DNA of 64,000 nucleotides from Paludibacter sp. (GTDB taxonomy: Bacteria > Bacteroidota > Bacteroidia > Bacteroidales > Paludibacteraceae). The DNA is taken from assembly GCA_019163375.1 (NCBI GenBank), contig JAFLKK010000007.1, forward strand, positions 345,813 through 409,812, written 5' to 3'. The notes beneath the pieces are model-generated. The model was not told the DNA's origin. It did not search any database and saw only the letters and a program-made list of their open reading frames with translations. Shown piece after piece: positions 16,907-49,687 of this stretch (its first letter is position 1; each line of letters starts with the position of its first letter). Both the position numbers and the translations under genes were made by a program.

Positions 16907-17074
16907 TATACCCCAAGCAGGGCAGTATATTTGGCGTTACAAGCTCGTATTTACTGCTACTGGAGAGTTCCGCAGCTAGCTAAAACCAAAATCTACACAA
17001 GAGGCAACATAGGCTGTAAATATAAACAAAAAAAAGAGACAAACTATATAAATAGAATGTCTCTTTTCTAAACG

Positions 17075-17165
17075 TACCTGCCTACCGCAGGCTGGCCCGA
17101 AGCGGGACTTGAACTTGCCTGCGGCAGGCAGGCCCGCACAGCCGTAAAGCCAAAGGATTTTAAGT
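17075..17165 (-). pseudogene. displaced tRNA-Leu 3' fragment, left copy
   Basis: It matches bases 17853-17905 of the intact tRNA-Leu(UAA): the last base of the 5' anticodon stem, the loop, the variable arm, T arm and 3' acceptor strand. Two 19-bp palindromic inserts (17077-17095 and 17114-17132) break the acceptor and T stems. The 5' half is absent and is replaced by the end of the GIY-YIG gene, so it cannot be a working tRNA. Confidence 0.9.
17077..17132. repeat. pair of 19-bp palindromic inserts, left copy
   Basis: Inserts at 17077-17095 and 17114-17132 fit the minus-strand consensus CCWGCCTGCSGYAGGCARG. Each follows CGGG and precedes T in the tRNA sequence. They are absent from the intact tRNA-Leu. 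The inner TGCCTGC and GCAGGCA arms can form a hairpin. Confidence 0.85.
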
Positions 17166-17399
17166 TTATAGACTCCGTAGAAAATCTCTACCAATTCCAC
17201 TTTTAAAATACTTCTCTCTAATCCGTGCTTCAACACGAGTTTCTACGACCTCAGAATAGATTAATTCGAAAGGACGATAGGGTTTGGTAGTTCGCTCATA
17301 TCCATGATTATGCCGATCTAATCTTTTCGGTAAATCAGAGGTCATTCCGACATAAATATAGTTGCGAGTAAGACTTCTTAAGGCGTAAACTGTAAACAT
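17166..17399 (-). CDS. small GIY-YIG nuclease, left copy
   Basis: The 77-residue protein is a complete minimal GIY-YIG domain of the UPF0213/YhbQ-like type. The GIY equivalent is VYAL (residues 4-7) and the YIG equivalent YVG (16-18). The catalytic Arg is in KRLDRH, and the catalytic Glu is probably in [15 protein letters not shown] domains cut one DNA strand near their target; the family's cellular role is unknown. The start ATG overlaps the unit junction (ATGTT from the previous unit's end, then TACAG), and no ribosome site or promoter is visible between the tRNA terminator and the start. The stop TAA abuts the displaced tRNA fragment. The protein is identical to the copy 389 bases to the right. 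Confidence 0.82.
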   Translation of the reverse strand: MFTVYALRSLTRNYIYVGMTSDLPKRLDRHNHGYERTTKPYRPFELIYSEVVETRVEARIREKYFKSGIGRDFLRSL

Positions 17400-17463
17400 A
17401 GGCTGTAAATATAAACAAAAAAAAGAGACAAACTATATAAATAGAATGTCTCTTTTCTAAACG

Positions 17464-17554
17464 TACCTGCCTACCGCAGGCTGGCCCGAAGCGGGACTTG
17501 AACTTGCCTGCGGCAGGCAGGCCCGCACAGCCGTAAAGCCAAAGGATTTTAAGT
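17464..17554 (-). pseudogene. displaced tRNA-Leu 3' fragment, right copy
   Basis: It has the same structure as the fragment at 17075-17165: 53 bases of tRNA-Leu from the anticodon loop to the discriminator base, with 19-bp inserts at 17466-17484 and 17503-17521. The tRNA-like sequence begins one base after the GIY-YIG stop codon. Confidence 0.9.
17466..17521. repeat. pair of 19-bp palindromic inserts, right copy
   Basis: The inserts at 17466-17484 and 17503-17521 are identical to those of the left unit and occupy the same two CGGG-T sites in the tRNA sequence. Confidence 0.85.
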
Positions 17555-17788
17555 TTATAGACTCCGTAGAAAATCTCTACCAATTCCACTTTTAAAATAC
17601 TTCTCTCTAATCCGTGCTTCAACACGAGTTTCTACGACCTCAGAATAGATTAATTCGAAAGGACGATAGGGTTTGGTAGTTCGCTCATATCCATGATTAT
17701 GCCGATCTAATCTTTTCGGTAAATCAGAGGTCATTCCGACATAAATATAGTTGCGAGTAAGACTTCTTAAGGCGTAAACTGTAAACAT
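17555..17788 (-). CDS. small GIY-YIG nuclease, right copy
   Basis: It encodes the same 77 residues as 17166-17399. It begins 65 bases after the 3' end of the intact tRNA-Leu and just past that tRNA's terminator hairpin, in the same direction. Expression by read-through of the tRNA-Gly/tRNA-Leu transcript is therefore the simplest route, since no separate promoter is seen. The ORF ends at TAA, which joins directly to ACTTAAAATCC of the displaced tRNA fragment. I infer that the nuclease, or an ancestor, targeted the anticodon-loop region of tRNA-Leu. A passive duplication that happened to carry the gene is the alternative. Confidence 0.82.
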
Positions 17789-17804
17789 AGGCTGTAAATA
17801 TAAA

Positions 17805-17846
17805 CAAAAAAAAGAGACAAACTATATAAATAGAATGTCTCTTTTC
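17805..17846 (-). terminator. terminator of the tRNA-Gly/tRNA-Leu unit
   Basis: On the minus strand AAAAGAGACA pairs with TGTCTCTTTT around a 16-base AT-rich loop, with a run of T residues after it. Copies in the tandem units lie at 17416-17457 and 17027-17068. Confidence 0.85.
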
Positions 17847-17852
17847 TAAACG

Positions 17853-17935
17853 TACCCGAAGCGGGACTTGAACCCGCACAGCCGTAAAGCCAAAGGATTT
17901 TAAGTCCTTCGTGTCTACCATTCCACCATCCGGGC
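17853..17935 (-). tRNA. tRNA-Leu (anticodon UAA)
   Basis: The 83-base gene has acceptor strands GCCCGGA and TTCGGGT, discriminator A, anticodon stem AAGGA/TCCTT with loop CTTAAAA (anticodon TAA), a long variable arm typical of class II tRNA, and T arm GCGGGTTCAAGTCCCGC. CCA is not encoded. It is intact, unlike the two displaced fragments downstream. It lies 21 bases after tRNA-Gly on the same strand. Confidence 0.97.
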
Positions 17936-17956
17936 ATGATATACGTTTTAAATATG

Positions 17957-18029
<73 letters not shown>

Positions 18030-49565: not shown

Positions 49566-49687
49566 ACCCCTAATCCGTCAGATGACGGAGAACAAGAGAT
49601 TGCTTTTGCAAATACTATTATTAAAAAACCTTCATTCGGAATCGAATGAAGGTTTTTCTTATTCTCCGTCAGCTGACGGATTAGGGT
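49566..49687. terminator. nested inverted repeat with inner terminator
   Basis: The inner hairpin (49623-49638 with 49643-49657; AAAAAACCTTCATTCG) has a T-rich tail on both strands and serves the convergent upp and M48 genes. An outer inverted repeat (49566-49592 and 49662-49687; ACCCCTAATCCGTCAG and its near complement) surrounds it, each outer arm also being partly self-complementary (CCGTCAGATGACGG). Confidence 0.8.

Follow-up and report, generated by a model that had tools for sequence, protein, structure and literature searches.

A 77-residue GIY-YIG gene beside tRNA-Leu(UAA) in the window, the 64,000-nucleotide stretch of a Paludibacter sp. genome analysed here, probably belongs to a minimal mobile element, one of a large family in which a small GIY-YIG gene is combined with a piece of its target tRNA, and often with a hairpin at the end, while the tRNA is kept whole. 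That the element keeps or rebuilds its tRNA is well supported, and together the loci look like a widespread family of mobile elements that target tRNAs and have apparently not been described before. At the level of sequence, the arrangement recurs on many tRNAs, tRNA identity is clustered, a hairpin lies at the junction in most tested loci, occupied and empty loci exist, and tandem arrays are present. Nuclease activity, a cut site and movement of the element are inferred, as is the role of the tRNA as its target.

Tandem GIY-YIG units beside tRNA-Leu(UAA)

The earlier note on this DNA had described an intact tRNA-Leu followed by two identical 389-bp units, each with a GIY-YIG gene and a tRNA-Leu 3' fragment, and our analysis confirmed this layout. 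Read along the minus strand, the order is tRNA-Gly, tRNA-Leu(UAA), terminator, GIY-YIG, remnant, terminator, GIY-YIG, remnant, terminator:

17956-18029, minus strand: tRNA-Gly(GCC) (ARAGORN call, anticodon gcc), the same upstream neighbour as in congener loci
17852-17935, minus strand: intact tRNA-Leu(UAA), the rebuilt or preserved copy (ARAGORN; Rfam RF00005, 58.3 bits)
17810-17845, minus strand: terminator-like hairpin, first copy, after the intact tRNA-Leu (repeated at 17421-17456 and 17032-17067)
17555-17788, minus strand: GIY-YIG nuclease gene, copy adjoining the tRNA, 77 aa (PF01541, E = 8.6e-16)
17463-17554, minus strand: tRNA-Leu 3' remnant (bases 31-84), broken by two palindromes
17503-17521, minus strand: palindrome 1, at the T-arm position of the first remnant (a similar palindrome lies at the matching place in G016, locus L049)
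17466-17484, minus strand: palindrome 2, near the 3' end of the first remnant
17421-17456, minus strand: terminator-like hairpin, second copy
17166-17399, minus strand: GIY-YIG nuclease gene, second, identical copy, 77 aa (PF01541)
17074-17165, minus strand: second tRNA-Leu 3' remnant (palindromes at 17114-17132 and 17077-17095)
17032-17067, minus strand: terminator-like hairpin, third copy (17006, where the repeat stops, corresponds to a GIY start codon)

Perfect identity between the two units extends for 462 bp (from 17006 and from 17395) with a period of 389 bp, and the first 73 bp of the repeat, on the terminator side, are present a third time at 17784-17856. Identity with the tRNA restarts right after each stop codon (17554 and 17165), at tRNA base 31, which immediately precedes the anticodon loop. 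The earlier note had overlooked that each remnant is interrupted by two 19-bp palindromes, from which the intact tRNA-Leu is free. Since the outer terminator copy matches as far as the GIY start codon plus two bases, one insertion and one tandem duplication explain both units. The simplest history of the window would be a single insertion, followed later by tandem duplication via the terminator repeats, and the second unit is best read as such a duplication. Two independent insertions are unneeded, as the 462-bp identity and the palindromes common to both remnants fit one duplication.

The 77-aa GIY-YIG gene is the sole recognised gene of the 389-bp unit. The GIY-YIG superfamily is characterised by a motif of conserved Tyr, Tyr, Arg, His and Glu residues. 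The window protein contains the domain (PF01541, 58.5 bits), and Y5, Y16, G18, R26, H30 and E62 are invariant in an alignment of 23 rows; its AlphaFold model has a mean pLDDT of 96. The closest solved structures in a profile search were UPF0213 (1zg2, 1ywl; 2.7e-17) and SLX1 (1.9e-8), and the top Foldseek ranks were held by UPF0213, Slx1 and I-TevI, none of them below an E-value of 0.001. No NCBIfam model scored above its cut-off for this protein, which is a member of the GIY-YIG nuclease superfamily.

A link to group I introns, also raised in the earlier note, was not borne out: the tRNA-Leu(UAA) of the window is uninterrupted, and cmscan of the locus up to E = 1 gave two tRNAs and one match far below the gathering score, with no intron match.

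Recurrence, tRNA identity and empty loci

Within the source genome, 30 of the 46 Rfam tRNA matches were examined as loci and gave 38 distinct tRNA calls. Leaving aside complete tRNAs in tandem and short stretches of resemblance between unlike tRNAs, we found a partial 3' copy less than 1 kb from a tRNA for three of these calls only, Leu (the window), Met (C2, 269 kb) and Val (C4, 22.7 kb). GIY-YIG sequence lies between the tRNA and the remnant in all three cases, that of Val being decayed. The arrangement is thus not due to chance. Nor is it peculiar to this genome: in relatives, many small GIY-YIG genes of one clade directly adjoin a tRNA gene on the same strand, and on their far side lies part of that tRNA again.

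Searches with PF01541 in the source genome and 199 relatives gave 34 loci from the best matches and 60 of about 80 remaining small places, from which we dropped one duplicate (L003), ORFs longer than 400 aa, proteins shorter than 60 aa (for the tree), repeated sequences and, in some analyses, loci near contig ends. The resulting tree of 102 small GIY-YIG genes contains a clade of 67 rows, 47 of them tRNA-adjacent, and a sister clade of 35 rows with a single tRNA-adjacent one. In the larger clade the tRNA is upstream in 42 rows and downstream in 5, and none was found in the remaining 20, 4 of which are at contig ends. These 20 include a subgroup of 9 rows in which no tRNA was found, with three copies behind a tmRNA gene among them. 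The latter stand in a row directly behind that gene (L093:1489-3033), so the sites of the element are not limited to tRNA genes.

On a tree of the 46 tRNA-adjacent rows, tRNA identity requires 17 changes against a mean of 30.4 for shuffled labels, a number as low being reached in none of 200 shuffles, in a test that is helped by near-copies such as the twin genes of the window. Leu and Asp are single clades, the Met, Val and Pro labels fall into a few groups each, and the Arg, Ala and His labels show no clustering on this tree. A strict rule of one tRNA per protein group was accordingly cut back, as clustering is clean for Leu and Asp and loose or absent elsewhere.

Partial tRNAs behind the stop codons of GIY-YIG genes, for which the earlier note had proposed a search in Bacteroidetes genomes, turned out to be common: a piece of the same tRNA follows the stop codon (alignment score of at least 15) in 102 of 130 genes with a tRNA within 450 nt upstream. 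These cover 18 anticodon kinds, a few of which (Gly-ccc and Glu-ctc at least) are, given the 450-nt limit, probably mere neighbours. The mirror image of this arrangement also exists. The earlier note had the gene together with the tRNA 3' part, which stands, and missed a form that doubles the 5' part instead. We found it in 13 of 14 loci examined, where the intact tRNA comes after the gene (or the ORF overlaps the tRNA start) and a 5' piece of the same tRNA comes before it, often with a palindrome after about base 16-28; in the fourteenth (L352) the intact tRNA is upstream instead. Three tRNA-Val-like repeats about 106 bp apart at L073:1331-1619, unnamed by ARAGORN and with no GIY gene between them, are possibly gene-less derivatives.

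The Met clade extends well beyond the genus. A query with this clade had 379 relatives in named genomes; among the 79 loci kept from the best-scoring ones, a sample whose fractions are not unbiased, a same-strand tRNA lies upstream in 64 (Met(cat) in 55, Val(gac) in 8 and Asn in 1). By title these loci belong mostly to Bacteroidota, with some from Balneolia, Rhodothermia, KSB1, Marinimicrobia and Cloacimonadota. The same gene without a tRNA part, which the earlier note had counted as a sign of plain duplication, is a minority, the Met clade having no upstream tRNA in 15 of 79 loci, of which 6 lie at the edge of a contig. Among loci sampled across the phylum, 27 of the 30 top-scoring and 18 of the 19 hand-picked ones are tRNA-adjacent, fractions that again are not unbiased, and 199 of 296 genomes have a match at E = 0.001, an upper bound because the sister clade also matches. 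A viral-contig scan with the Met clade yielded just two weak matches, and an origin from phages was discarded.

The comparison with empty sites that the earlier note had called for was made on 29 congener loci carrying tRNA-Leu(UAA) after tRNA-Gly, taken from the best 30 loci of the 48 genus genomes searched, one of the 30 being truncated. The gene is present at two of them, the window and G016 (79% protein identity). The other 27 had no match to the window protein, and what comes after their tRNA is different sequence, in most cases a hairpin resembling a terminator; a few of these gene-less stretches are short contigs (about 110 nt after the tRNA in L161), and one, L178, has a palindrome-bearing 5' copy. 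Occupied and empty alleles of the tRNA-Leu locus are thus found between species. For the tRNA-Pro of G255, 109 of 150 genomes, among them G255 itself, have a match to the downstream stretch; among 30 such loci fetched, one other (L362) has a tRNA call before the downstream stretch, with the gene absent and the locus inverted.

Tandem arrays reach up to five copies, also in single-contig genomes. Arrays of partial units could be taken as the work of a domesticated host function that regulates how tRNA genes are amplified or turned over and uses the remnant as a recombination handle, and the phage enzyme SegB does amplify a tRNA-segB unit under selection (PMC13096335). We consider such a function highly improbable, because the arrays multiply the gene and a broken tRNA, not whole tRNAs, and because presence is as patchy as 2 of 29 loci.

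Junctions, hairpins and dispersed palindromes

The junction analysis used 53 loci, each with an exact second copy of the last 20 tRNA bases no more than 160 nt from the stop codon; the window locus is not among them, its own last 20 tRNA bases being interrupted by a palindrome. With a hairpin defined by six outer pairs and an end within 3 nt of the first identical base, a junction hairpin is present in the remnant of 38 of the 53 loci, against 4 of 53 at the equivalent position of the intact tRNA and 0.6% of shuffled sequences. The figures are 27 of 32 remnants versus 0 of 32 intact tRNAs for Met, and 11 of 21 versus 4 of 21 for the others. The first base identical to the tRNA 3' part usually sits directly behind the hairpin and corresponds to tRNA positions 44-51 in 40 of the 53 loci (29 of the 32 for Met and 11 of the 21 for other tRNAs) and to position 55 in 5. 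The anticodon loop, which the earlier note had proposed as the site of insertion, is therefore not supported as a general one and is rejected as a fixed one, with 40 junctions at positions 44-51. The start at base 31 in the window may merely be where homology meets the stop codon; in the relative from G016, identity starts at base 30. In L027, the displaced T stem keeps all five pairs.

Direct repeats were scored in 110 type-A loci, where they end at most 12 nt beyond the 3' end of the tRNA in 35, in the spacer in 20, at the start codon in 12 and inside the ORF in 15, with no clear direct repeat in 28. Hence 35 of the 82 clear repeats stop within 12 nt of the tRNA 3' end and comprise the tRNA part only, which would fit an element bringing its own tRNA 3' part and spacer, while repeats ending elsewhere would fit recent duplication inside one host. 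The 12 of 110 repeats that reach the start codon can also be explained by plain local duplication, in which a GIY-YIG gene beside a tRNA was doubled with part of that tRNA and the copies decayed; they count against the element account, as do the 28 loci with no clear direct repeat. The terminators are moreover host-like and also doubled in some loci (the window; L341), and the two units of the window are identical and flanked by a repeated terminator. As an account of the whole family, however, local duplication seems to us distinctly unlikely, given that the same layout is found on many different tRNAs, that 38 of 53 remnants have the junction hairpin and that 35 of 82 repeats stop at the tRNA end. 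A further point weighs against the element reading: displaced and intact 3' parts are identical in 37 of 56 alignable loci and differ by one base in 11, and since they are mostly identical (as are the terminators of the window), a foreign origin of the rebuilt part is unsupported.

The palindromes are also dispersed outside the units. A 15-base pattern of the window palindrome family has 25 matches in the source genome, 4 of them in the array, and none when reversed, and the Met-type palindrome has 20 sites in the same genome, one of which is within the window at 49665-49680. The Met-type palindrome occurs in all 7 genus genomes with a Met-clade gene (E < 1e-30) versus 15 of the 41 others (p = 0.0023). 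The window-type palindrome, sought with a longer pattern, is present in 18 of the 48 genus genomes, most of them without a detected Leu/Arg-clade gene, and is carried by the Leu locus and several Arg loci.

Ssn proteins are site-specific single-strand GIY-YIG nucleases of Neisseria associated with palindromic NTS/dRS3 repeats. An Ssn-like nuclease might here act on REP-like palindromes that enter tRNA loops and survive only where a spare intact tRNA is present, the tRNA being a tolerated landing place. Several observations agree with this scenario. The palindromes are dispersed, as the Met-type sites and window-type matches of the source genome indicate; several sister-clade genes that lie away from tRNAs are flanked on each side by inverted palindromes; and the spare 5' copy of tRNA-Leu at L178:1599-1702 contains a clean insertion of a 19-bp palindrome, which duplicated no target sequence, in a locus where no GIY gene was found. 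The Met clade, furthermore, keeps its hairpin type on both Met(cat) and Val(gac) tRNAs. We nevertheless hold this scenario to be rather unlikely, as tRNA identity clusters on the protein tree and most sampled clade members are tRNA-adjacent, and a merely tolerated site should be less constant.

The element reading was further confronted with the relation between hairpin and protein. Over 49 loci with a junction hairpin, stem similarity correlates with protein identity (r = 0.65 over all pairs, and 0.59 where the two tRNAs differ), values reached by none of 2000 permutations, which ignore shared descent. Once Met(cat) and Val(gac) are removed, the 14 remaining loci give r = 0.12 (416 of 2000 permutations as high), and no correlation was seen among them for pairs on different tRNAs (r = 0.00). 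The link between protein and hairpin rests on the Met clade, whose constancy of hairpin type on Met(cat) and Val(gac) tRNAs speaks for the element reading as well.

Some palindrome arrangements were noted in passing. Genes of the sister clade are often flanked by the palindrome ends GTCATTGC or GTCATTCC (L013, L038, L047, L057, L060, L062, L074, L083 and L089; also L028), and in the first set this tag lies within about 200 bp of 16 of the 58 genes without a tRNA call and of 1 of the 46 with one (L028). At L041:1980-2253, a perfect 16-bp inverted repeat abuts the GIY-YIG start and stop codons, apparently inside another reading frame. In the centre of L129 and L131, a larger inverted repeat has palindrome copies at its tip, which would fit a preference of palindrome insertion for hairpin loops.

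A possible mechanism and its known relatives

On the element account, the unit would lodge in or against a tRNA gene whose tRNA stays whole. In the form seen in the window, the tRNA 3' part next to the gene would complete the upstream tRNA, and the former 3' part would end up downstream, usually behind a hairpin. The putative nuclease may nick or cut a target that forms a hairpin and is perhaps single-stranded, located either in the tRNA gene or at the palindrome, whereupon repair or homologous recombination with tRNA copies would insert the element and leave the tRNA unharmed. Such cutting could also drive the gain and loss of tandem copies, as in phage SegB. In the window, one element would have arisen at tRNA-Leu, palindromes would have come to lie in the displaced 3' part, which has no function, and the unit would have been doubled when terminator repeats recombined. 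Several points speak against this account. Rebuilding restores the supposed target, which makes it a puzzle that the intact tRNA is spared recutting. Not all tRNA labels cluster on the protein tree, the subgroup of 9 rows has no tRNA, the hairpin follows the protein in the Met clade but not in the 14 other loci, and the window-type palindrome is common in genomes where no Leu/Arg-clade gene was detected. The core of the earlier note, an element with a nuclease gene and a replacement tRNA 3' part, draws support from the recurrence on tRNAs, the clustering and the 27 of 29 empty loci, whereas its anticodon-loop site and its group I intron link do not.

Among the papers listed by keyword searches of the open-access literature, judged by title and opening of the abstract, none described the tRNA-rebuilding arrangement, which is weak evidence of absence as most subscription papers and all bioRxiv preprints were outside its scope, and the portion of a GIY-YIG phylogenomics paper considered here makes no mention of tRNA-gene neighbours (PMC1564403). 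A bolder form of the account, possible in our view rather than probable, would posit mobile DNA of about 300-450 bp, free of integrase and transposase, composed of a structure-reading GIY-YIG nuclease and a terminal hairpin. Such DNA would home into a hairpin-forming single strand of tRNA or tmRNA genes, rebuild the tRNA at each insertion and switch tRNAs with its hairpin kept (as seen in the Met clade alone), and its range would comprise Bacteroidota together with some related phyla. If true, this would be a very small selfish DNA that lives in an essential gene by rebuilding it, it would tie GIY-YIG nucleases to hairpin repeats in bacteria, and it would account for many of the unusual small GIY-YIG genes and tRNA fragments that genomes of Bacteroidota contain.

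Several known systems share parts of this design. Integrase elements at tRNA genes carry a tRNA 3' part and restore the gene on integration. The window family resembles them in the 3' part carried and the tRNA restored, but its 389-bp unit has no tyrosine or serine integrase, and it has a hairpin at the displaced part and a mirror form that doubles the 5' part. UPF0213 (1zg2, 1ywl) and the structure-specific SLX1 nucleases are the closest solved relatives by profile and the top fold matches, and we know of no tie of either to tRNA genes. Ssn is likewise a small stand-alone GIY-YIG protein, with a cognate palindromic repeat near its gene and dispersed in the genome, and it cleaves single-stranded DNA at that repeat. 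The likeness lies in the small GIY-YIG protein and may extend to a cognate family of palindromic repeats; to our knowledge, Ssn has no tRNA target and does not rebuild tRNAs.

REPtrons are RAYT transposase genes associated with REP palindromes (PMC3733652). In them, too, a single gene is paired with repeats that form hairpins and are scattered elsewhere in the genome; they differ in that the gene of the window unit is a GIY-YIG gene with no HUH tyrosine transposase, and in that its site is a tRNA gene. SegB, finally, is a free-standing GIY-YIG homing endonuclease of T-even phages encoded beside tRNA genes (PMC13096335, PMC2988022); the window family shares this position and the tandem units. 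As described there, SegB belongs to phage genomes with intact tRNAs, whereas the window type is a bacterial chromosomal family, and the parts of these papers considered here do not mention the hairpin-bearing tRNA remnant or the tRNA rebuilding seen in the latter. As in the window family, many isotypes are involved. Microhomology links the 5' end of the tRNA with the 3' end of segB, and SegB nuclease activity together with recombination has been demonstrated experimentally to yield tandem tRNA-segB units (PMC13096335), which makes phage SegB, by analogy, the closest experimental precedent for the arrays described here.
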